Shown here: piece by piece, positions 21,074 to 32,070 of the stretch | Numbering within the stretch: the stretch's first letter is position 1 | Layout of the letters: each line of letters begins with the position of its first letter | Assembly (NCBI GenBank): GCA_028875225.1 | Contig: JAPPFB010000012.1 | Coordinates: 356,985-420,984, forward strand | Direction of reading: 5' to 3' | Source of the DNA: Chloroflexota bacterium | GTDB lineage: Bacteria; Chloroflexota; Dehalococcoidia; Bin125 | Length of the DNA stretch: 64,000 bases | Translations under genes and position numbers: made by a program | The notes under the pieces: model-generated | Told to the model about the DNA's origin: nothing | Databases searched by the model: none | What the model saw: the letters and a program-made list of their open reading frames with translations, nothing else

Positions 21074-22579
21074 TTAACTCCGATACGCCCGATTCAGCGC
21101 CTGCCTCATCTGCAGGGTCTGCGAGGCCGCGACGGCGTTGGATTTGCGGTACTGGTCCCAGCGTTCGCGTTCGCGGCGGGACAGCTGCGGCTTCAACGAA
21201 GTCGGGACTCTGAGGCCGAGCAGCATCGAAGCGTAGCCGGCGTAGCCGAAGATCGTGGCGTTCGAGGTCAGCCGCGCCAACAGCCGTGATGGACCGACCT
21301 CGGCATAGCAGTCGACCATGTCCTGGATCTGGCCGAGCGGAGACTCGGCGCGGCAATGACGCCAGAACGGCGTGTCCTGGTGCTCGTTGAACTTGTAGTG
21401 CAACGCGAGGAAGTCGCGGACGTCGTCCCAGGTCGAGGCGAAGCGCTCGTTAAGCAGGTAGCGCAAGGAGTCGGTGAGGATTCGGTCGGAATCGGTCAGC
21501 GCCCAGGCCAGGTTATAGAGCTGTTCGATGATGAGGTGCAGCGAGGTCGCCTCGAGCGGTTCGACGAAGCCGGAGGCGTTGCCGACCGCGACGACGTTCT
21601 CGACGACGTATCGCTCGCGCCGTCCGGATGGGAACTTGAGCAAACGCAGATCCGCGCCGGCGAGCTGCGGCTGCAGCGCGCGCAACTCGAACTCGGCTTC
21701 TTCCTCGGAGCAGAACCGCGACGAGTACACGTAGCCGCGGGTGACCTGATCCTCGAAGTCGATTCGCCAGCACCAGCCGTGCTTCATCGTCGTCATCGTC
21801 GTGTAGGGGCGAATTGTGTCGTCCTCGGGGAAGTCGGCCCGCGACCAGGAGCCGACCACGGCGCGGTCGCAGTACAGCGCGTCGCGGTAGGAGATGTAGG
21901 GTTCGTCGAGCGCCTGGCCCAACAGCAGCGAGCCGAAGCCGGAGCAGTCGACGAACAGGTCGGCCTCGAGCTCGCGACCGCTGGCCAGCTTGAGCGACTT
22001 GAGCCCGCCGGACTCGTGGCGTTCGACGCTGACGACCTGGTCGGCGATCAGTTCCGCTCCCGAGGCGGCGGATTTCTGCTCGAGGTAGTCGATGAACGAG
22101 GCGTTGGGGATGTGGTAGGTGGCGCGCGGGTCGAGCGAGAGGCGGCCGTTGCGGATGTTCGCCGGGGAGCGGTCGCGGTCCATGATCGCGTTGAAGGGGC
22201 TGGCGTCGCGCATGTCGTGGAGGCAGTAGAAGGCGTTCCAGCGGGAGAGGCCTTCGATCCGCTGATCGAGATACTTGTCAAAGGTGTAGTTGAAGTGGGG
22301 CACGTCCTTGGCGCCCCACTCGAAGCGCAGGCCCAGCTTCCAGCTGGGGCGGACTTCGCGATGGAACTCGTTGCGGTCGATGCCCAGGTGCTCGTGCAGG
22401 TGGACGGGCACGGCGGGGGTGGTCGACTCGCCGACGCCGATGATCGGGATGTCGGGCGAGTGGACGACGGTCAGCTTGACCTGGGGCAGCATCCGCCGAA
22501 ACGTCAGGGCGGCGAGGAATCCGGCGCTTCCGCCGCCGACCACGACGGCGCTGCGGATCGGTGCGGGCTCGGCGCTCAT
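21074..22579 (-). CDS. Flavin-dependent (tryptophan halogenase-type) monooxygenase
   Basis: These enzymes use FADH2 and oxygen to make hypohalous acid and chlorinate or brominate an aromatic substrate. The 501-residue protein has the FAD-binding start VVVGGGSAGFLAAL, the GVGESTTP motif, and Lys81 in SWKLGLRF at the place of the catalytic lysine. The diagnostic WxWxIP motif appears as WCWRID (269-274), with the last residue changed. The catalytic glutamate block reads VEPLEATSLHLI (Glu343). Length and domain order match known halogenases. No flavin reductase or biosynthetic cluster is adjacent, so the substrate is unknown. The frame opens upstream, but the ATG at 22579 places the Rossmann motif correctly. 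Confidence 0.82.
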   Translation of the reverse strand: MSAEPAPIRSAVVVGGGSAGFLAALTFRRMLPQVKLTVVHSPDIPIIGVGESTTPAVPVHLHEHLGIDRNEFHREVRPSWKLGLRFEWGAKDVPHFNYTFDKYLDQRIEGLSRWNAFYCLHDMRDASPFNAIMDRDRSPANIRNGRLSLDPRATYHIPNASFIDYLEQKSAASGAELIADQVVSVERHESGGLKSLKLASGRELEADLFVDCSGFGSLLLGQALDEPYISYRDALYCDRAVVGSWSRADFPEDDTIRPYTTMTTMKHGWCWRIDFEDQVTRGYVYSSRFCSEEEAEFELRALQPQLAGADLRLLKFPSGRRERYVVENVVAVGNASGFVEPLEATSLHLIIEQLYNLAWALTDSDRILTDSLRYLLNERFASTWDDVRDFLALHYKFNEHQDTPFWRHCRAESPLGQIQDMVDCYAEVGPSRLLARLTSNATIFGYAGYASMLLGLRVPTSLKPQLSRRERERWDQYRKSNAVAASQTLQMRQALNRAYRS

Positions 22580-22915
22580 GGCGCGGACACCCTTCGCAAG
22601 CCGGGACTCGGGTCCCAAGCTGGTTCTCTCCCCCGATCTCGCCCGCGGCGAACTCCGGGAAGGGGATCGGGGCTGGGAACGGGGAGGTTTTCGGGGGCTG
22701 TGGCGTGGTCTCCCGGCGAGGACTGCGGATCGTGCGTTTTGGCGTCCGGATTTGTCCAGATTTGTCCAGATTCTTCTGGATTGGTCCAGATGTGGCTCAG
22801 TTTGGTCAGGTTTTGACCAAGGAATTCCTGGAAATCGCAGGAATATGCAGTTCCGGGGGACGGTCCTCGGAGTTCGTCCGTCGTGGCCGGGTTGTGTGAG
22901 CGCATATGTTCTGAC
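22580..22915 (-). promoter_or_regulatory. Long leader of the halogenase gene, counterpart of the gltX leader
   Basis: Read on the minus strand, GTCAGAACATATGCGC (22915-22900) is identical to the 16-mer upstream of gltX, and TAACGT lies 8 bp before its ATG, as TACAGT does there. Direct repeats of the type AAATCTGGAC follow (about 22795-22740). A 109-codon frame starts in the 16-mer and ends in the ATGA of the halogenase start. Both possible upstream peptides contain Q-I-x-T-N-P. The rest of the gap, to 23039, shows nothing I can name. Confidence 0.45.
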
Positions 22916-23068: not shown

Positions 23069-23148
23069 CACGGCGTCCGAATCCGAGCAGCCTGGTGACG
23101 CAATCCTGTCTCCGACCGCTTGCGACGGACGGAAGGAGACGGCACTCA

Positions 23149-24255
23149 ATGCCAAGACTGCGAACCTCACACCTTGTCTATCTGATCGCTTCCCTGTTCA
23201 TTGTCCTCGGAGGAGTCCTTGCCGCCTGCGGCGGCGACGACGAACCTGAGGGACCGGCAGACGACGTCAAGATCGTCTTGCAGTGGGTTGTCCAGGCCCA
23301 GTTCGCCGGGTACTACGTGGCGCTGGAGAAGGGCTTCTACGAGGAGGAGAACCTGAACGTCGAGATTCAGCCCGGCGGCCCCGACATCCTGCCAGTGCAG
23401 CTGGTCGCGGCGGGCGCGGCGGAGCTGGCGGTGCAGCCGTTTGCGGTGGTGTTGTCGGCGCGTGACCAGGGCATCGACGTGGTGGCCGTGGCGCAGGTCT
23501 TCGAGCGCTCCGGCTACCGGCTCGTCTCCTGGGCCGACGACGGGATCACCTCGCCCGAACAGTGGGGCGGCAAGAAGCTCGGCGTGTGGGCCGGACACGA
23601 GATGGTCTCGGCCACGATCAACAAGTACGGCCTGACCGAGGGTTCGGGCGACGACCAGGTCGAACTGGTCGGCCAGGGCTTCGACATGCAGCTCTTGCTG
23701 GAGCGCCAGGTCGATCTCGCCTCGGCGATGATCTACAACGAGTTCGCACAGTTGATTGCGGCCGGCAACCCGGTCAGCGACTTCCGTGTGGTCGACTTCG
23801 GCGACCATGACACCAACACCCTTGAAGACGCGCTGCTGGCGCGCGGCGAATGGCTCGAAGACGAGGACAACCAGGACATCGTGACTCGCTTCCTGCGCGC
23901 TTCAGCCAGGGGCTGGGCGGTCTGCGCCGACGATCCCGAGGAGTGCGTTGAGATCGTGCTCAAGTACGGTCCAGCGCTGCCGCGGGCGCACCAGACCTGG
24001 ATGATGAACGAGATCAACAAGCTGATGTGGCCGTCGTCCAAGGGTTGGGGCGTGATCGACCACGAGTCGGCGTCGCGAACCGCCGACATCATGCTGGAGT
24101 ACAACGTGATCTCCGAGGCCGCCGACCTGGATGCGGCGTACACCAACGACTATGTCGAAGCGGCGTTGGAGGACTTCTCTGACGACGACCGATTCCGCAA
24201 TGATTACGATCCGCTGGATCTCGACGTTGAGGATCTCCTGCCCGACGACAGTTAA
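23149..24255 (+). CDS. NMT1/THI5-type substrate-binding lipoprotein
   Basis: This 368-residue periplasmic binding lipoprotein belongs to the family that binds thiamine pyrimidine precursors, pyrimidines, taurine or related small molecules. The signal peptide ends in the lipobox LAAC, followed by a short acidic linker. The fold begins at VKIVLQWVVQAQFAGYYVAL and includes PGGPDILPVQLVAAGAAELA, typical of the group. AAGGAG lies 11 bp before the ATG at 23149. It is the first gene of an operon with two SsuC-type permeases and an ATPase at 29538-32070 and hydrolytic ureide enzymes between, so the cargo is probably the substrate of dihydropyrimidinase or a precursor. Unlike the family-5 binding proteins in this window it lacks a Gln-rich spacer. 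Confidence 0.85.
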   Translation: MPRLRTSHLVYLIASLFIVLGGVLAACGGDDEPEGPADDVKIVLQWVVQAQFAGYYVALEKGFYEEENLNVEIQPGGPDILPVQLVAAGAAELAVQPFAVVLSARDQGIDVVAVAQVFERSGYRLVSWADDGITSPEQWGGKKLGVWAGHEMVSATINKYGLTEGSGDDQVELVGQGFDMQLLLERQVDLASAMIYNEFAQLIAAGNPVSDFRVVDFGDHDTNTLEDALLARGEWLEDEDNQDIVTRFLRASARGWAVCADDPEECVEIVLKYGPALPRAHQTWMMNEINKLMWPSSKGWGVIDHESASRTADIMLEYNVISEAADLDAAYTNDYVEAALEDFSDDDRFRNDYDPLDLDVEDLLPDDS

Positions 24256-24265
24256 TCCGAATGGG

Positions 24266-24292
24266 CGGCGGCCGACCGAATCTCGGCCGCCG
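24266..24292 (+). terminator. Intra-operon hairpin after the binding-protein gene
   Basis: CGGCGGCCGA and TCGGCCGCCG form a 10-bp stem with a 7-base loop 11 bp after the stop. No T-run follows. Such hairpins often protect the binding-protein message or reduce read-through, giving more binding protein than enzymes. Confidence 0.6.
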
Positions 24293-24318
24293 TCTGACCC
24301 TGACAGAGGCGGTGAACC

Positions 24319-25152
24319 ATGTCCCGAATTGTCCGAGCCGCGCTGATTCAGACCGAGGGTCTGACGCCCGTCGAGAAGATGGTCGAGCGACAGATCGCGC
24401 TGATCCATCAAGCCGCCGAACAGGGCGCGCAGATCACGTGTCTGCAGGAGCTGGCGACCGGCCCTTATTTCTGTCAGGAGGAGGACAAGCGCTGGTACGG
24501 CCTGGCCGAACCGGTGCCGGACGGCCCGACCGTGCAGCGGATGCAGGAGGTCGCGGCCGAGACCGGCATGGTGCTGATCGTGCCGGTCTACGAGATTGAG
24601 TCGCCCGGCTTCCTCTACAACTGCGCGGCGGTGATCGACTCCGACGGCTCCTATCTGGGCAAGTACCGCAAGACGCATATCCCGCACTCGGACAACTTCC
24701 TCGAGAAGTACTACTTTCGACCGGGGAACCTGGGTTATCCGACGTTCGATACCAGCGTGGGGCGGATTGGCGTCTACATCTGCTACGACCGGCACTTCCC
24801 CGAGGGGGCGAGAGCGCTGGGCCTGAATGGCGCTGAGATTGTCTTCATCCCATCGGCCACGGCGGGTCATTCACGGGTGTTGTGGGACGTGGAGCAGCGC
24901 TTCCACGCGATCGCCAACGGCTACTTCGTCGGGACGATCAACCGGGTCGGCACGGCGCTGAAGCCCGACGTGCATTTCTACGGGCACAGCTATTTCTGCA
25001 ATCCGAGCGGCGAGGTGCTCGCGCAGGCCGACGACCAGGAGGCGGTGATCGTGGCCGACCTGGACCTGGACCAGCTCTCGGAGGCGCGGGCCGAGTGGCC
25101 CTTCTACCGCGACCGGCGTCCCGACATGTACGAACCGCTGGTCAAGCCCTAA
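24319..25152 (+). CDS. Beta-ureidopropionase / N-carbamoyl amidohydrolase (nitrilase family)
   Basis: The enzyme cleaves N-carbamoyl-beta-alanine (or a similar N-carbamoyl amino acid) to the amino acid, CO2 and ammonia. The 277-residue protein has the nitrilase triad Glu44 (LQELATGPYF), Lys118 (GKYRKTHIPH) and Cys155 (ICYDRHFPEGARALGLNGAE). The residues after the cysteine closely match beta-ureidopropionases and N-carbamoylputrescine amidases. The binding residues around GTINRVGT are also conserved. Its place next to dihydropyrimidinase makes step 3 of reductive pyrimidine breakdown the best reading; N-carbamoylputrescine is the main alternative. Confidence 0.85.
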   Translation: MSRIVRAALIQTEGLTPVEKMVERQIALIHQAAEQGAQITCLQELATGPYFCQEEDKRWYGLAEPVPDGPTVQRMQEVAAETGMVLIVPVYEIESPGFLYNCAAVIDSDGSYLGKYRKTHIPHSDNFLEKYYFRPGNLGYPTFDTSVGRIGVYICYDRHFPEGARALGLNGAEIVFIPSATAGHSRVLWDVEQRFHAIANGYFVGTINRVGTALKPDVHFYGHSYFCNPSGEVLAQADDQEAVIVADLDLDQLSEARAEWPFYRDRRPDMYEPLVKP

Positions 25153-25192
25153 ACGCTCGAATGGGTAACGGGATGCGCGAAGGAGGTACGAG

Positions 25193-26629
25193 ATGGCCTC
25201 AGTTCTGATCACCGGCGGAACCGTCACGACCGCGAGCGAACAGTACGTCGCCGACGTCTTCCTCGACGACGGCGTGATCGTGCAGATCGGCGCCAATCTC
25301 CAGGTCGCCGCGGACACGGTGGTGCAAGCGGAGGGCCAGTACGTGATCCCCGGCGGGATCGACGTGCATACGCACCTGGGCGAGACCGTGTTCCGGACGA
25401 TCACCGCCGATAGGTGGAATCCGGGGGGGGGGGGGGCCGCCTTGGGGGGCACGACGACAGTCGTCGATTTCGCGCGGCAAGAGCGCGAGGGCATGTCGCC
25501 GATCGAGGCGATCGAACACCGCCGCCGCCAGGCCGAGTCTCAGGCGGTGATCGACTACGGATTCCACCTGATGGCGACCAATCTGGATTCGCAGGAATAC
25601 CTGGAGGAGTTGGCGGCGCTACCGGGCGAGGGCGTGACCAGTTTCAAGCTACTGATGGCCTATCCCGGGACGATGATGGTCGATGACCTGACTATCTTCC
25701 GGGCGATGCAGGTTGCGGCTGATACCAATGCGATCGTGACGCTACACGCCGAGAACGGTCACGTGATCCAACAGATCACCGATCAGTTCGCCGAGCAGGG
25801 CCGGGTGCAGGAGCACATGCACATGCATGCGCATCCGCACCTGGTCGAGGGCGAGGCGACGCACCGCGGGATCGCGATGGCCGAGATGGCCGGTTCGGCG
25901 GTGTATATCGTGCATCTCTCCAGTCGCACGGCGTTGACCGAGGTCGAGGCGGCCAAGGCTCGCGGCCAGGCCGTGTACGCGGAGACCTGTCCGCAGTACC
26001 TGTTCGCCGCGTACGAGGACTACGAGAACGCCGGCTTCGAGGCGGCCAAGTACATTTGCTCGCCGCCGATTCGCGAGCGGGCCAATCAGGACGAGCTCTG
26101 GCGGGGGATCGAGACGGGCGCGCTCTCGGTGATCGCGACGGACCACTGCACCTTCCGGATGCAGGACGACCTGGCCGAATTGCCGCCGCAGAAGCCGATG
26201 GGCAAGGGCGACTTCCGTTACATCCCCAACGGCGTGCCCGGCGTCGAGAACCGGATGCACCTGATGTACGAGGGCGGCGTCGTTGAAGGGCGCTTCGACA
26301 TGATGCGCTTCGTCGACCTCAACTGCACGATGCCGGCCAAGCTGTTCGGCCTCTATCCGAGGAAGGGGATCATCGCCATCGGCGCCGACGCCGACATCGT
26401 GGTCTGGGATCCGAACGCCGACTACACCATTGAAGCTGCGACGCACCACATGCGCGTCGACTACAACCTGTATGAGGGAATGAAAGTCAGCGGGCGTCCG
26501 AGCACGGTGATCTCGCGCGGCGAGATCATCGTCAGCGGCGAGGAGTTCCTGGGAGCGCTTGGTCGGGGACAGTACATCCGACGGTCGACGCCGTATGTGC
26601 TGGACCATCCTCAGAGCGTCACGGCCTGA
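25193..26629 (+). CDS. Dihydropyrimidinase / D-hydantoinase
   Basis: This zinc-dependent cyclic amidohydrolase opens dihydrouracil, dihydrothymine or hydantoin rings. The 478-residue protein has the metal ligands His59 and His61 (VHTHLGE), the carboxylated Lys152 (SFKLLMAYPG), His185 (HAENGH), His241 (VYIVHLSS) and Asp317 (ATDHCTF). All are in the family order, and the length is normal. AAGGAGGT gives a strong ribosome-binding site. Around residues 75-82 the usual sequence is replaced by WNPGGGGA, encoded by a run of 14 G. The alignment length is kept, so this is either a sequence artefact or real drift in the loop that carries a substrate-lid segment. It is followed one base later by the aminotransferase. 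Confidence 0.88.
   Translation: MASVLITGGTVTTASEQYVADVFLDDGVIVQIGANLQVAADTVVQAEGQYVIPGGIDVHTHLGETVFRTITADRWNPGGGGAALGGTTTVVDFARQEREGMSPIEAIEHRRRQAESQAVIDYGFHLMATNLDSQEYLEELAALPGEGVTSFKLLMAYPGTMMVDDLTIFRAMQVAADTNAIVTLHAENGHVIQQITDQFAEQGRVQEHMHMHAHPHLVEGEATHRGIAMAEMAGSAVYIVHLSSRTALTEVEAAKARGQAVYAETCPQYLFAAYEDYENAGFEAAKYICSPPIRERANQDELWRGIETGALSVIATDHCTFRMQDDLAELPPQKPMGKGDFRYIPNGVPGVENRMHLMYEGGVVEGRFDMMRFVDLNCTMPAKLFGLYPRKGIIAIGADADIVVWDPNADYTIEAATHHMRVDYNLYEGMKVSGRPSTVISRGEIIVSGEEFLGALGRGQYIRRSTPYVLDHPQSVTA
25423..25436 (+). repeat. Homopolymer run of 14 G inside the dihydropyrimidinase gene
   Basis: Fourteen consecutive G residues occur in coding sequence, with six more 13 bp later. A change of one base would shift the frame. 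It encodes four glycines where family members have a Thr-Gly-Thr-Val-Ala-type stretch. Confidence 0.9.
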
Positions 26630-26630
26630 G

Positions 26631-27974
26631 ATGACCAGCGAACGCGCGGTCTCCGGCGCCAGCGCCGAAGAGATCCTCGACCTTTGCCGCGAGTACACGC
26701 TGTACGAGTGGGGCACGCAGGAGCAGATCAACCCGATCCCGTTTGTCCGCGCCAAGGGTATCTATCTCTGGGACGCAGACGGCAAGCAGTACCTCGACTT
26801 CAACTCGCAGGCGATGTGCGTCAACATTGGCCACGCCGACGATCGGGTCGTCCAGGCAATCGCCGAGCAGGTCGCGGAGCTGCCCTATGTCATCCCCGCT
26901 CACGCAACCGAGGCGCGAGGCCGGCTGGGCCAGGAACTGGCGCGGATCTCGCCGGAGGGTTTGAACAAGTCGTACATCACCCTGGCCGGCGCCGATGCGA
27001 ACGAGGCGGCCGTCCGGATCGCGCGGCTCTACACGGGCAGGCACAAGATCCTGACTCGCTACCGCTCGTATCACGGCAGCAGCCAGGGCGTGATGTACGC
27101 CTCGGGCGACTTCCGCCGGATGCCTTCGGAGGAGGGGATGACCGGCGTCGTCCGGATCCTCGATCCCTACCTGTATCGCAGTCCGTTGGCCGTGAACGAG
27201 GAGGATTTCGTCCCGGCCTACATGCAATATCTCGAGGATGTGATCCAGCGCGAAGGTCCAGAGACGATCGCGGCCATCCTGCTGGAGCCGATCACCGGCA
27301 CCAACGGGATTATTGTGCCGCCGGAAGGCTGGTACCGGGGCATCCGCGAGTTGTGCGACCGCTACGGCATCCTGCTGATCGATGACGAGGTGATGGCGGG
27401 ATTCGGTCGGACCGGCAAGTGGTTCGCGATTGAGCACGAGGACGTCGTCCCCGACATGATGACGATGGCCAAGGGATTGACCAGCGCGATCGTGCCGCTG
27501 GGCGCCGTGATGGTCAACGACCGGATCGCCGAGCACTTTGAGCAGAATCCGCTGGGTCACGGGATCACCTACGGCAGCCACACGGTCGGCTGCGCGGCCG
27601 CGATTGCGACGCTGAAGGTCTACGAAGAGGACAACCTGATCGAGAACGCGGTGCGGATGGGCGAGATCATGCAGGCCGAGTATGCCGCGATGAAGGAGCG
27701 GCATCCGTCGATCGGCGAGGCGCGCGGACGCGGACTGTTCACTGTCCTCGAACTGACGTCTGACCGCGCCACCAAGGCGCCGTTGCTGTCGGTCGATCCC
27801 GAACTCACCGGCCGCGTCGATCGGTTCTTCCGTGACGAAGGCATGTTCGTCAACGTGCGCGGCGACTTCATCTTCGGCAACCCGCCGCTCTCAATCACGG
27901 AAGACGAGCTTCGCTGGGCGCTGTCGGTCGTGGATCGGGCGCTCGACATCACCGATGCCGCCGTCCATTCTTAG
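26631..27974 (+). CDS. Class III aminotransferase (beta-alanine/taurine:pyruvate type)
   Basis: This PLP enzyme moves the amino group of an omega-amino acid to pyruvate or 2-oxoglutarate. The 447-residue protein starts near the family block YEWGTQEQINPIPFVRAKG, which resembles taurine:pyruvate and beta-alanine:pyruvate aminotransferases. It has YLDFNSQAMCVNIGH, the cofactor aspartate motif LLIDDEVMAGFGRTGKWFA and the Schiff-base Lys281 in MTMAKGLTSA. The start is chosen at 26631, one base after the dihydropyrimidinase stop; the longer frame lies inside that gene. In context it would take beta-alanine from the ureidopropionase to malonate semialdehyde. Confidence 0.86.
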   Translation: MTSERAVSGASAEEILDLCREYTLYEWGTQEQINPIPFVRAKGIYLWDADGKQYLDFNSQAMCVNIGHADDRVVQAIAEQVAELPYVIPAHATEARGRLGQELARISPEGLNKSYITLAGADANEAAVRIARLYTGRHKILTRYRSYHGSSQGVMYASGDFRRMPSEEGMTGVVRILDPYLYRSPLAVNEEDFVPAYMQYLEDVIQREGPETIAAILLEPITGTNGIIVPPEGWYRGIRELCDRYGILLIDDEVMAGFGRTGKWFAIEHEDVVPDMMTMAKGLTSAIVPLGAVMVNDRIAEHFEQNPLGHGITYGSHTVGCAAAIATLKVYEEDNLIENAVRMGEIMQAEYAAMKERHPSIGEARGRGLFTVLELTSDRATKAPLLSVDPELTGRVDRFFRDEGMFVNVRGDFIFGNPPLSITEDELRWALSVVDRALDITDAAVHS

Positions 27975-28027
27975 GACGGCCGACGGATCGTGAATCAGAC
28001 CGGCTGGAGAACGAAGGGATTTTCATC

Positions 28028-28432
28028 ATGACCGACTACCACGACAGTGACCGCTACCAACAGGGCGTCGGGCTGATGGAAAGCATCAGCATGAACCCGG
28101 CGGGGATGGACGCGATCGCCGCCGCGAACGGCGAGGTGGGTGAGGACGTCGCGCGGATGCTGGGCGAATTCTGCTTCGGCGACGTCTGGACGCACGGCCC
28201 GCTCGATCTGCGGACCAAGCGGGTGATCACACTGGCCACGATCTCGGCGCTGGGCCGCGAGCGCCAGCTGCGCGGTCACATCGCCGGCGCGCTGGCGCAA
28301 GGGTTCACGCGCGAGGAAATCCAGAGTATTTTCGTGCACCAGTTTGCCTACGGCGGCTTCCCGATGGGTTTGTCGGGATTGCAGGTTGCGGCGGAGGTCT
28401 TCGCCGAGATCGACGCGCAGGATGACGACTAG
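28028..28432 (+). CDS. Carboxymuconolactone decarboxylase-like protein
   Basis: This 134-residue all-helical protein of the CMD/AhpD superfamily contains the recognisable core FGDVWTHGPLDLRTKRVITLA followed by LRGHIAGALAQGFTREEI. The AhpD-type CxxC redox motif is absent, so it is more like the true CMD branch or an uncharacterised subfamily. CMD-like proteins can act as decarboxylases, lactonases or isomerases. Here it sits between the aminotransferase and the LLM oxidoreductase in the same operon, so it may process a product of the ureide pathway. No close functional match can be given from sequence alone. Confidence 0.75.
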   Translation: MTDYHDSDRYQQGVGLMESISMNPAGMDAIAAANGEVGEDVARMLGEFCFGDVWTHGPLDLRTKRVITLATISALGRERQLRGHIAGALAQGFTREEIQSIFVHQFAYGGFPMGLSGLQVAAEVFAEIDAQDDD

Positions 28433-28479
28433 AAGCTCGCGACCGCGTTGCATCTGGATCAGGGGATGGAGCAGGGACC

Positions 28480-29487
28480 ATGAAACTCGGATTGATGTCG
28501 GGCATCGACCATCCACGAGACATCATTGACCAGGCTCAATGGGCCGAGGACCAGGGATTTGAAACGGTCTGGGTCGGTGAGGGCCGGCTGACGCGCAACG
28601 CCGTCGTGCATATGACTCTGGCTGCGGCCAACACCGAGCGGATCACCATCGGCAGCGGCATCTTCCCGTTCCGCACGCGCAGCGTGGGGCTGCTGGGCAT
28701 GACCGCGCGCACCCTCGACGACATGGTGCCCGGGCGGATCAAGCTCGGCCTGGGAGCGTGGTGGGAGCCGCTGGCGACGCGCAACGGTCTGCACACGGCC
28801 AAGCCGCGCACGGCGATGAAGGAGATCATCCTCGCGCTCAAAGACCTGCTGGACGGGAAGTCGGTGACCTACCAGGGCGAGTACGTCGACATTGATCAGA
28901 TCAAGTTCGACACGCCCGAGGACGACGACAACCCGTCCTATCCGGTCCCGATCTACATCGGCGCGGTCCGGTTGCGGATGATGGAGCTGGTCGGCGAGGT
29001 CGCCGACGGCGCACTGATGGACTTCCTCGTCCCGCCCGAGTACACGGCGCTCTCGGTCGATCACATCAAGATCGGCGCAGACCGCATGGGACGCTCGATG
29101 GACGAGATCGACTGTCCCCAGCTGCTCGGCGTGGCCGTCGACGACGACAACCCGCAGGCGGCGGTCGACGCCTGTAAGAAGTTCCTGACCCAATACATCG
29201 GTCAGCAGCCGCACATCACCGAGAACTGCGGCGCGACGGAGGAGCAGATTGCCGGCGTCAAGAGCGTCATGGGCTGGCCCGCCACGCAGGAGCAGATCGA
29301 AGCAGCGATGCAGTTCATCCCCGACGAACTGGTTCGGGACGTCTGCTGCTGCGGCACGACCTCGGAGACGATCGAGCGAATTGAGGCCTTCGTGGCGGCC
29401 GGCTGTACGGAGCCGGTGCTCACTCCGCTGGGCGACTACCAGGGCACCGTTGAGAAAATTGCCGGCGCGGTTCGGCAACGCGGATGA
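28480..29487 (+). CDS. LLM class (F420- or FMN-dependent) oxidoreductase
   Basis: This 335-residue TIM-barrel protein of the bacterial luciferase-like family has the N-terminal strand MKLGLMSGIDHPRDIIDQAQ, the WVGEGRLTRNAVVHMTLAA region and IGSGIFPFRTRS. The block GRIKLGLGAWWEPLA then matches F420-dependent members such as methylene-H4MPT reductase-like enzymes. F420 or FMN use cannot be settled from motifs. The operon has no dihydropyrimidine dehydrogenase, so this enzyme is a candidate for the missing redox step, either ring reduction or an oxidative opening like RutA. It ends 50 bp before the first permease gene. Confidence 0.83.
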   Translation: MKLGLMSGIDHPRDIIDQAQWAEDQGFETVWVGEGRLTRNAVVHMTLAAANTERITIGSGIFPFRTRSVGLLGMTARTLDDMVPGRIKLGLGAWWEPLATRNGLHTAKPRTAMKEIILALKDLLDGKSVTYQGEYVDIDQIKFDTPEDDDNPSYPVPIYIGAVRLRMMELVGEVADGALMDFLVPPEYTALSVDHIKIGADRMGRSMDEIDCPQLLGVAVDDDNPQAAVDACKKFLTQYIGQQPHITENCGATEEQIAGVKSVMGWPATQEQIEAAMQFIPDELVRDVCCCGTTSETIERIEAFVAAGCTEPVLTPLGDYQGTVEKIAGAVRQRG

Positions 29488-29537
29488 GCGGCTGGACGGC
29501 CGAGCGGAATCTACGCCGAAAGTGAGTTCGTCGAGCG

Positions 29538-30413
29538 ATGAGCGCCAGCGCCGGTCCGGAGGTTGCAGCCCAATTCTCTGCACGTGAGCGCTGGCTGACG
29601 GACGAGCGCGCTGAACGGCTGCGTTCCGCTTCGGCCAGGATCACGCTGGTCCTGATCCTCGTTGGCCTGTTCCTTGGCGGTTGGGAGTTCCTCAAGTGGG
29701 CGACCGAGGCGCCGCGCACCACGCTGCCTCATTTCCATGAGGTCGTCGACTACCTGTTCAGCATCAACTCGCAAGGCGACGTGGTCTGGCTGGCGATCGG
29801 GCGCAACCTGCGGCTCACGTTCATCGAGGCGCTGAGCGGACTGTCGGTGGCGATCGTGGCCGGGTTCGCCGCCGGCACGTTGATGGCGCTGAGCCGCTGG
29901 ACGGGTCGCGGGATTATGCCCTTCGTGATCGGCGCGCAAACCGTGCCGATCGTCGCGATCGCGCCGGCGCTCGTGATCTGGCTGGGCACCGGCTGGGAGA
30001 CCAAGGCGTTGATCGCCGGGTTCCTCGCCTTCTTCCCGATCGCGGTGACCAGTGCCCGTGGCATCGGCGACGTCTCGCAGGACAGCCTCGACCTGATGGC
30101 CTCCTACGGGGCGTCGCGCACCGAGGTGTTCTTCAAGCTGCGCTTGCCCAGCGCGCTGCCTTACATCTTCACCGGTCTTGAGGTCGCCGCGGCGTTCAGT
30201 GTGATCGGTGCGATCGTGGCCGAGTTGCCGGTCGGCTCGCAAGAAGGCATCGGCGTCGTGATTCTGACGTCCCAGCAGTACTTCAGCCTGCAGCCCGAGT
30301 CGTTGTTTGCCGCGATCGGCGGCGCATGCCTGCTCGGCGGCGCCATGGTCGGGATGGTCCGCATCATCCAGATCGTGTTCCTGCGCGGCCACCGTGCGCA
30401 GGAATTGAGTTAG
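29538..30413 (+). CDS. ABC transporter permease, SsuC/ThiX type (first)
   Basis: This 291-residue inner-membrane permease has about six hydrophobic segments. After a charged N-terminus of 30 residues, the first helix is ARITLVLILVGLFLGGWEFL. The cytoplasmic coupling loop with an EAA-type motif is around LDLMASYGASRTEVFFKLRL. A second permease lies at 31252, and the two share the same architecture but differ in sequence, so a heterodimer is likely. The binding protein at 23149 and the ATPase at 30425 complete the importer. Confidence 0.88.
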   Translation: MSASAGPEVAAQFSARERWLTDERAERLRSASARITLVLILVGLFLGGWEFLKWATEAPRTTLPHFHEVVDYLFSINSQGDVVWLAIGRNLRLTFIEALSGLSVAIVAGFAAGTLMALSRWTGRGIMPFVIGAQTVPIVAIAPALVIWLGTGWETKALIAGFLAFFPIAVTSARGIGDVSQDSLDLMASYGASRTEVFFKLRLPSALPYIFTGLEVAAAFSVIGAIVAELPVGSQEGIGVVILTSQQYFSLQPESLFAAIGGACLLGGAMVGMVRIIQIVFLRGHRAQELS

Positions 30414-30424
30414 GAAGGCGGGCC

Positions 30425-31255
30425 ATGACCACACCAGACACTTCCCGTCAGGCGGCCCCGAGCGGGACACAGACCGCGATTGCATTCCAGGGCGTGCGCA
30501 AGGAGTTCGGCAACGGAGCGAATGCGACGCTCGCCATTGAGTCCGTGGATCTTGATATCGCCGAGCGTGAGTTCGTCTCATTGATCGGCCCTTCGGGCTG
30601 CGGCAAATCGACATTGTTGCGTCTGGCCGCCGATTTGATTGAACCCAGCGGCGGATCGGTCCTGGTCAACAACAAGACGCCCCGGCAGGCCCGGCTCGAC
30701 CGCGATTACGGCTTCATCTTCCAGGCGCCGACCCTGTTCGACTGGCGCACGGTCTGGAAAAACGTCGCCCTGCCGCTCGAGATTATGAAGATTTCCGGCA
30801 TGTCCAGGGAGAAGAAGGACGAGGAGATTGAGCGATTGCTCAGCATGGTCGGTCTGGACGGTTTCGAGAGCCACCATCCCTACCAGCTCTCCGGCGGGAT
30901 GCAGCAGCGCGTTTCGCTGGCGCGAGCACTGGTCTTCCGGCCCTCGATTCTGCTGATGGACGAGCCCTTCGGCGCGCTCGACGAGATCACGCGCGACCGG
31001 ATGAACCTCGAGCTGCACCGAATCTGGGAAGAGACGAACACCACGATCCTGTTCGTCACCCACAGCATTCCCGAGGCGGTGCTGCTCTCCGGCCGGGTCG
31101 TCGTCATGACGGCCCGGCCCGGCCGCGTGCAGGAGGTCATCCCGATTGACCTGCCCTATCCCAGGACGACCGAGGTCGAGGAGTCGACTCGCTACTACGA
31201 GCTGGTGACGGAAGTCAGGGAGTCGCTGGGACGGGCGATGGCAGGCGGACTGTGA
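30425..31255 (+). CDS. ABC transporter ATPase, SsuB/ThiZ type
   Basis: This 276-residue ATP-binding subunit has the Walker A motif GPSGCGKST (55-63), a Q-loop around FIFQAPTLFDWRT, the signature LSGGMQQRVSLARAL and the Walker B motif ILLMDEPFGALDE. The H-loop is FVTHSIPEAVLL. The upstream-open frame lies within the permease; the ATG at 30425 follows it by 11 bp after GGAAGGCGG. Its stop overlaps the next start (GTGA). It is the only ABC ATPase gene in the whole window. Confidence 0.92.
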   Translation: MTTPDTSRQAAPSGTQTAIAFQGVRKEFGNGANATLAIESVDLDIAEREFVSLIGPSGCGKSTLLRLAADLIEPSGGSVLVNNKTPRQARLDRDYGFIFQAPTLFDWRTVWKNVALPLEIMKISGMSREKKDEEIERLLSMVGLDGFESHHPYQLSGGMQQRVSLARALVFRPSILLMDEPFGALDEITRDRMNLELHRIWEETNTTILFVTHSIPEAVLLSGRVVVMTARPGRVQEVIPIDLPYPRTTEVEESTRYYELVTEVRESLGRAMAGGL

Positions 31256-32070
31256 CGACTGCGGACCCAACCCTCGAAGCCGGCGCCGAACCGACGCGCC
31301 AGTGGAGCCGCCATGCCGGCGTAGTCGTCCCGCCGTTCCTGGTCTTCGTGGCCGCGATCGGACTGTGGGAGTTGATCGTCGAGGCCTTCGATATCCAGCG
31401 CTTCCTGCTGCCCCGCCCCAGCGAGATCGCCAGCCTGTTCGTCGAGGATTTCGGCCGACTCATCCGCCAGGGACGCAACACGCTGGGCGTCGCCGGCCGC
31501 GGGCTGTTGCTGGGCGGCGGTATCGGCGTTGGCCTGGCCGCAATCACCTTCCGCACCCGCTGGATGGCGGAGGGTATTGGCATCTATGCGGCGGTACTCA
31601 AGGCGGTGCCGGTGATTTCACTCGCTCCGCTGACCGTCGTCTGGTTCGGGATCGAGGCGGGATCGAAGATCGCCACGGTGAGCATCGCGACCGCGCCGAT
31701 CCTGTTCACCTACACGCTGGTCGGGCTACGCAGCGCCGACGCCAACGCACAGGAGCTGATGCGCTCGTACGCCGCCGGACACTTCCGCACCTTCTGGAAC
31801 CTGCACGTTCCCTACGCGCTGCCGTTCTTCTTCTCCGGCCTGAAGATTGCCGTCACGATTGCAATGATCGTCGCGATCATCTCCGAGTACTTTGGCGGCA
31901 GCTTCGAGAACCTGGGCGGCTACATCCGCAACGAGGCGAACAACGTCCACACGGTCGAAGTCTGGACGGCGATCGTGATGGCCTGTCTACTCGGCATTAG
32001 CCAGTACATGATCGTGGCCGCCATCGACCGCTACGTCCTCCGCTGGCACCCCTCGAAGCGCGGCAACTGA
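31252..32070 (+). CDS. ABC transporter permease, SsuC/ThiX type (second)
   Basis: This 272-residue permease starts with GTG inside the ATPase stop codon. The first membrane helix is VVVPPFLVFVAAIGLWELIV. The block FDIQRFLLPRPSEIASLF is very typical of SsuC/TauC/ThiX permeases, and the EAA-like loop lies near ANAQELMRSYAAGHFRTFW. It closes the operon that begins at 23149. The next gene has its own promoter. Confidence 0.88.
   Translation: MTTADPTLEAGAEPTRQWSRHAGVVVPPFLVFVAAIGLWELIVEAFDIQRFLLPRPSEIASLFVEDFGRLIRQGRNTLGVAGRGLLLGGGIGVGLAAITFRTRWMAEGIGIYAAVLKAVPVISLAPLTVVWFGIEAGSKIATVSIATAPILFTYTLVGLRSADANAQELMRSYAAGHFRTFWNLHVPYALPFFFSGLKIAVTIAMIVAIISEYFGGSFENLGGYIRNEANNVHTVEVWTAIVMACLLGISQYMIVAAIDRYVLRWHPSKRGN

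Follow-up and report, generated by a model that had tools for sequence, protein, structure and literature searches.

A flavin-dependent halogenase homologue with an altered WxWxIP motif from a Dehalococcoidia genome groups with MibH

The minus strand of a 64,000-nucleotide stretch of a Chloroflexota genome (hereafter, the window) carries a gene, HAL, whose product resembles flavin-dependent halogenases and reads WCWRID at the WxWxIP motif. The original prediction took this motif to be one that blocks monooxygenase side reactions, and suggested that HAL might halogenate an unusual free or imported substrate or act as a monooxygenase. Is HAL a halogenase, what does its altered motif signify, and on what might it act? 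The features on which the answer turns are these:

21074–22579, minus strand: HAL, encoding a PF04820 flavin-dependent halogenase of 501 residues, plus stop codon
22520–22537, minus strand: GGGSAG dinucleotide (FAD) binding loop, residues 15–20, confirmed from the DNA
22337–22339, minus strand: codon of the catalytic Lys81, within PSWKLG, confirmed from the DNA
21758–21775, minus strand: WCWRID, residues 269–274, with WxWxI retained and proline replaced by Asp274, confirmed from the DNA
21536–21571, minus strand: GFVEPLEATSLH, which holds Glu343 and the halide-loop residues Thr345 and Ser346, confirmed from the DNA

Residues 12–466 of HAL match Pfam family PF04820 with a score of 362.6 bits against a curated cut-off of 21. 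The GxGxxG loop is present as GGGSAG, its Gly15, Gly17 and Gly20 being invariant in an alignment of 46 relatives, and Lys81, Glu343, Trp269, Trp271, Phe338 and Pro341 are likewise invariant in all 46. With the match to MibH described below, these data uphold the earlier identification of a halogenase homologue that keeps its FAD loop, Lys81 and Glu343. The Fx.Px.SxG motif is incomplete: in the sequence FVEPLEATS, the phenylalanine and proline are kept, and serine and glycine are replaced by Ala344 and Ser346, respectively. Alanine occupies the first of these sites in 25 of the 46 rows, and glycine the second in 10. The list of open reading frames allows a longer product of 514 residues from a TTG at 22618; we prefer the ATG at 22579 because the longest possible frame begins correspondingly in four congeners (L119, L121, L122 and L123). 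The source genome, a 3.2-Mb assembly of 29 contigs that is 96% complete, encodes two further PF04820 proteins (contigs C22 and C23), both remote from HAL and with WxWxIP intact.

An AlphaFold2 model of HAL, built from the alignment, has a pLDDT of 93.7 and a pTM of 0.92. The top three rows of a Foldseek search with this model are chains of MibH, the best with an E-value of 9.3e-49, a TM-score of 0.89 and 34% identity; similarity of this order to a solved halogenase rules out chance resemblance. MibH (5uao) is also the best match in the PDB by sequence, at 273.7 bits, and stands low in the ranking when a profile of the whole alignment is run against the PDB. In the VIA-align comparison, the top rows are halogenases: PyrH and AbeH score Z 44.9 and MibH, in seventh place, 44.3, with Xcc4156 and SttH within the same unit. 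Rows within 1 Z of each other count as tied, and by structure alone MibH is therefore not set apart from these enzymes. The comparison with PrnA and RebH that had been proposed as a check gave Z values of 41–43 and showed that the model shares their fold. In the model, residues 268–274 form one strand and residues 278–285 the next. Judging from strand alternation rather than from inspected coordinates, Trp269, Trp271 and Ile273 would share one face of the first strand, with Asp274 pointing the opposite way at its end.

The alteration of the motif is real, and it is milder than had been claimed, since WxWxI is whole and the sole change is that of proline to Asp274. Residue 274 is proline in 25 of the 46 relatives, aspartate in 11, glutamate in 8 and glycine in 2, and in the 19 rows with an acidic residue (D/E rows) residue 344 is alanine in 18 and residue 276 glutamate in 15. 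Three changes at this position suffice on a tree of 91 rows (66 with proline, 19 D/E and 6 with glycine), from which the weak homologues of the C22/C23 type, the orthologue L029 and L032, a fragment at a contig end, were omitted. All 19 D/E rows lie within one clade of this tree, which includes MibH and a Streptomyces protein, L148, with an SH-aLRT support of 99. In a 44-row tree, hand-picked from the 91 for spread (the long branch L037_b being left out) and computed with residue 274 masked, all 15 D/E rows join MibH and L148 at 100/100. Inside that clade the tree gives no firm branching order for Chloroflexota, Verrucomicrobiota, MibH and L034, and a clade of D/E rows on their own is neither rejected (AU p 0.388, 44-row tree) nor demonstrated. 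We conclude from the grouping of the D/E rows that the change in the motif is ancient and characterises a whole branch, and is not the mark of a broken enzyme. Clustering within a non-halogenating clade, which the original prediction had named as the outcome that would count against it, did not occur; the smallest well-supported clade holds MibH. To our knowledge, MibH is the only member of this clade with established activity.

The Verrucomicrobiota members of the branch include tandem halogenase arrays of three (L035:7980–12614), five (L036:1213–9509) and two copies (L037:7734–11028). The first two arrays each contain one long-branch copy of the proline type, the remaining copies being of the D/E type.

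Published work has not always counted the proline as part of the motif. PMC12871659 treats it as WxWxI with the proline optional, which, taken with the residues found in the 91 rows, indicates that the full WxWxIP does not define the PF04820 family. Halogenases lacking the motif are noted in PMC8407142, and the role of certain residues in WxWxIP is called unclear in PMC10696468. The accessible literature on flavin-dependent halogenases yielded no description of the D/E branch, and we found in it no assay of an enzyme with aspartate or glutamate at HAL position 274, MibH having proline there. The branch also offers a natural test of the role of the WxWxIP proline.

Comparison with characterised enzymes bears on the substrate. 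MibH, the tryptophan 5-halogenase that acts in the lanthipeptide pathway of NAI-107 (PMC12615548), shares with HAL its 100/100 clade and a motif that begins GWCW, but it has WCWTIP and a halide loop of ESSG where HAL has WCWRID and EATS, and genes of such a pathway were not seen near HAL. RebH and PrnA, which are 7-halogenases of free tryptophan, resemble HAL in fold, in the catalytic lysine and glutamate and in GxGxxG; they differ in possessing the substrate motif YY..FE.EF.NFW and the proline of WxWxIP, and are 27–31% identical to it. Halogenases of free tryptophan carry a Trp4 motif (PMC8269204), of the form YYxxF..NFW.. or (Y/H)YHG.., which is absent from HAL, where the aligned stretch is YAEVGPSRLLARLTSNATIFGYAGYASM. 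The RebH-like rows L040, L054 and L062 read YYG(N/S)FEAEF(R/K)NFWTNGSYY at this place, and L039 is the same except for NERYY. The orphan enzymes BrvH and Xcc4156 are, like HAL, without the residues that bind free tryptophan, and act on indole and its derivatives and not on free tryptophan (PMC5945002, PMC7336383). The glycine of Fx.Px.SxG is altered in them too, to serine in BrvH and to asparagine in Xcc4156 (PMC5945002, PMC7336383). BrvH is active with T-S in its halide loop and, unlike HAL, keeps WxWxIP (PMC5945002). Neither orphan is among the rows of our trees; in the analysis available in PMC7336383 they do not cluster near MibH.

The sister of MibH in our trees, L148, is a Streptomyces plasmid halogenase (L148:11162–15311) with an alpha/beta hydrolase gene directly upstream and a non-ribosomal peptide synthetase (NRPS) gene directly downstream. 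The same 25 kb also holds genes for a flavin reductase and for a member of the tryptophan 2,3-dioxygenase family.

HAL is present in 9 of the 15 genomes of its genus, the source genome (G000) included. The copy in G012 is a fragment, and the other eight copies are 92–95% identical to HAL; the closest named records, in the same range of protein identity, come from Chloroflexi/Dehalococcoidia metagenome-assembled genomes, among them SB0664_bin_20, bin125 and bins of the RHO2/RHO3 series. At family level the count is 11 of 20 genomes, with the copies in G018 and G019 at 64–66% identity, and in a 400-genome sample of the phylum strong matches were confined to G000 and the distant G383, with 12 weak ones besides. 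Beyond the phylum, the nearest relatives from named genomes are found in Roseovarius (44%) and Verrucomicrobiota (42%), followed by sequences at 38% or less, among the best 80 of 186 relatives; the best-ranked plasmid record is 36.6% identical to HAL. A phage origin was considered and rejected, none of 46 relatives on viral contigs exceeding 34% identity.

The gene is under strong purifying selection: for eight of the nine orthologues in the genus (the G012 fragment being omitted), dN is 0.022–0.050 and dS 0.44–0.70, giving dN/dS ratios of 0.041–0.089 in all 28 pairs. Two changes account for the presence of HAL on a 15-genome tree of neighbouring genes, the deepest branch of which is weak (50/35), and recent transfer among the genomes of the genus need not be invoked. 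The HAL tree and the neighbour-gene tree agree in pairing G014 with G006. G000 groups with G010 at 100/100 in one of the two and the pairing is unsettled in the other, and G012 groups in the HAL tree with G002 and not with G009. The simplest account is that the gene has been passed down within the genus, was lost from part of it and moved once, in the line of G000 and G010. A second halogenase gene, 64% identical, occurs in G005 (L116:7896–15252), flanked by alpha/beta hydrolase genes and followed by SBP_bac_5-like and permease genes.

In the window, HAL is followed after 197 bp by the gene for a hybrid histidine kinase that has GAF and PAS domains and a Trans_reg_C DNA-binding domain. Divergent to HAL, positions 23095–32070 encode an NMT1-type binding protein, a CN hydrolase, a dihydropyrimidinase that exceeds its NCBIfam cut-off, a class III aminotransferase, and an ABC ATPase and permease, a set that looks suited to importing and degrading pyrimidines or hydantoins. 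HAL of G010 occupies the same place, with the kinase 5.4 kb away. This distance, and the existence of close paralogues of the kinase (up to four matches per genome at E 1e-150, and none in 3 of the 15 genomes), led us to reject a conserved operon of HAL and the kinase. Between HAL and the divergent importer gene lies one further element:

22745–22794, no strand: direct-repeat array with a 10-bp period

The repeats sit in a block that is 93% conserved in G010 and have no second match in the window. They are a candidate operator, possibly that of the hybrid kinase. Flavin reductases (PF01613) are encoded in all 15 genomes, with four in the source genome, none of them beside HAL.

Neither an alpha/beta hydrolase gene nor a dipeptide/nickel-type importer gene adjoins HAL in the window, and the earlier statement that no biosynthetic cluster surrounds it is correct there. 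It does not describe the genus, since seven of the nine genomes with HAL share a different gene context. The order in these seven is AFOR, three small genes that match no Pfam family, redoxin, short-chain dehydrogenase (SDR), alpha/beta hydrolase and HAL. The hydrolase stop and the HAL start are 7–8 nt apart in G001, G005, G006, G012 and G014; in G002 and G009 a pair of small genes, BrnT-like at a score below the Pfam cut-off, separates them. A BrnT-like gene and a small partner occur at varying points of the SDR–hydrolase–HAL locus (L119:10782–11296, L120:8571–9175 and L117:7791–8299), and the pair is also found in G003 and G011, which have no HAL. The hydrolase, SDR and redoxin genes are present in all 15 genomes, with or without HAL. 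In the eight genomes that lack HAL at this place, G000 and G010 among them, the hydrolase gene is followed by a convergent quinone-oxidoreductase-like gene, at a distance of about 13–31 bp in five and about 445–654 bp in three.

A dipeptide/nickel-type importer (SBP_bac_5) is next after HAL in G002, G005, G006 and G014, a 90-residue frame intervening in G002 and the end of the contig cutting the G005 copy. It follows after one oxidoreductase gene in G001 and about 6 kb further on in G009; the G012 contig stops inside HAL. At family level, G019 has SBP_bac_5 about 4 kb from HAL, and G018 has none within the 20-kb contig scanned. At least two types of importer, 46–53% alike, occur beside HAL, and such importers are common, the source genome having 27 SBP_bac_5 genes, or by estimate about 1 in 100 genes, so that the link between HAL and the importer may be a loose one. 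The two types, the distances in G009 and G019 and the lack of an importer on the G018 contig weaken the case for the importer as a fixed partner of HAL. Nor did an importer prove characteristic of the D/E branch as a whole, for there is no SBP_bac_5 among the scanned neighbours of its members in Roseovarius (a mechanosensitive channel, RecJ and, about 5 kb away, a TRAP-type binding protein) or in Verrucomicrobiota (an ABC ATPase, a STAS protein, a sigma factor and an ATP-grasp protein). Other orphan halogenases are associated with TonB and SapC.

HAL probably adds chlorine or bromine to aromatic molecules. The reading that we favour, and hold to be rather more probable than its alternatives taken together, is that HAL is an active two-component, FADH2-dependent halogenase of the MibH-related branch whose target is an indole or phenol ring carried by a larger and perhaps imported molecule. 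FADH2 would come from a flavin reductase whose gene lies at another locus of the genome. By the established chemistry of the family, FAD, O2 and halide would give HOX, which would pass to Lys81 and Glu343, both of which HAL possesses. The strand bearing Trp269, Trp271 and Ile273 would still keep the flavin apart from the substrate, with Asp274 ending it. The substrate itself would be an electron-rich indole or phenol ring in a larger molecule, for example an alkaloid or a small peptide, as opposed to tryptophan in free form. Its uptake from outside is possible given the placing of congener HAL genes with SDR, alpha/beta hydrolase and often a dipeptide/nickel-type importer, and is put forward more tentatively. 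As to the unusual free or imported substrate first proposed, the motif for free tryptophan is absent, and import would agree with the importers near HAL in several congeners, which do not prove it. It is conceivable, and on balance doubtful, that the WxWxI[DE] enzymes form a functional class of their own outside biosynthetic clusters, in which Chloroflexota HAL, coupled to Dpp/Nik-type importers and the SDR–hydrolase pair, would halogenate peptides or alkaloids picked up from the host or other microbes, for detoxification, signal defusing or tagging. The lack of SBP_bac_5 beside the D/E relatives in other phyla counts slightly against this view.

The closeness to MibH could also be taken to mean that HAL is a tailoring halogenase of ribosomally made peptides (RiPPs), like MibH or SrpI, the gene for its precursor lying at another site in the genome. 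Sequence, Foldseek and tree all make MibH the nearest characterised relative, and sponge microbiomes are a described source of peptide brominases of the SrpI type (PMC10858898, PMC12615548). We nevertheless think this unlikely. A YcaO match is found in none of the 15 genomes of the genus, and no RiPP family appears in the Pfam matches of the scanned neighbours, a scan that short precursors can escape. A candidate precursor, a 109-residue frame at 22576–22905 overlapping the HAL start, was rejected: it is equally long in G010, but its differences fall 28/21/26 by codon position, against 21/10/119 for HAL, so that it has no codon pattern and is non-coding. A substrate bound to a carrier or conjugate, as is likely in the NRPS cluster of the Streptomyces plasmid, with the alpha/beta hydrolase as releasing esterase, would accord with the position of L148 between an alpha/beta hydrolase and an NRPS and with the hydrolase 7–8 nt upstream of HAL in five congeners. 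No NRPS or carrier protein is, however, among the Pfam matches of the scanned neighbours of HAL; this proposal seems to us quite improbable.

Least probable of all is a flavin monooxygenase, in which loss of the proline would open the flavin pocket and HAL would hydroxylate aromatic compounds, the SDR and a PcaD-like hydrolase completing a catabolic route. Besides the altered motif, this idea could draw on the position of congener HAL after the SDR and a hydrolase whose best NCBIfam match is PcaD-like (116 bits, cut-off 390), and on a weak match to the monooxygenase QhpG. The QhpG score is, however, 31 bits against a cut-off of 240; both tryptophans, the isoleucine, Lys81 and Glu343 are retained under strong selection; and the hydrolase and SDR occur in 15 of 15 genomes regardless of HAL. 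The monooxygenase activity that the motif had been thought to suggest is thus not sustained: an acidic residue at position 274 is a trait of the branch, HAL shares a clade with MibH, the proline is optional in PMC12871659, and halogenases lacking the motif are on record in PMC8407142.

HAL stands as a halogenase candidate of the MibH-related branch, a well-kept enzyme of ordinary fold and probably ordinary chemistry, whose interest lies in its branch, its proximity to MibH and its setting in the congeners. Many halogenases outside clusters, BrvH and Xcc4156 among them, have no known native substrate (PMC7336383). That of HAL can be sought, because the branch has a defined signature, stands beside a characterised peptide halogenase and is represented here in nine related genomes, seven with a common gene context.

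Of the related genomes, bin125 and the RHO bins derive from the marine sponges Aplysina aerophoba and Rhopaloeides, respectively. Corals and sponges commonly harbour Dehalococcoidia, the class to which members of Bin125 are assigned (PMC10608941). Among halogenase fragments from Aplysina, those of clade 4 are distantly related to sequences of Verrucomicrobia and Cyanobacteria, two clade 4 members are correlated with Chloroflexi OTUs, and part of clade 2 is nearest a Dehalococcoidales protein (PMC6644159). There is a likeness here to HAL, whose genome is Dehalococcoidia-like and whose relatives beyond the phylum include Verrucomicrobiota. Should the HAL branch prove to correspond to clade 4, or to those clade 2 fragments that resemble Dehalococcoidales, there would be a genome behind the Chloroflexi link, which for clade 4 rests on correlation. 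The forward primer of the Aplysina survey, the halogenase primer SZ002 (site 22416–22440), has two to five mismatches to the eight genus orthologues tested, some of them near its 3′ end, so that primer-based surveys may under-sample this branch.
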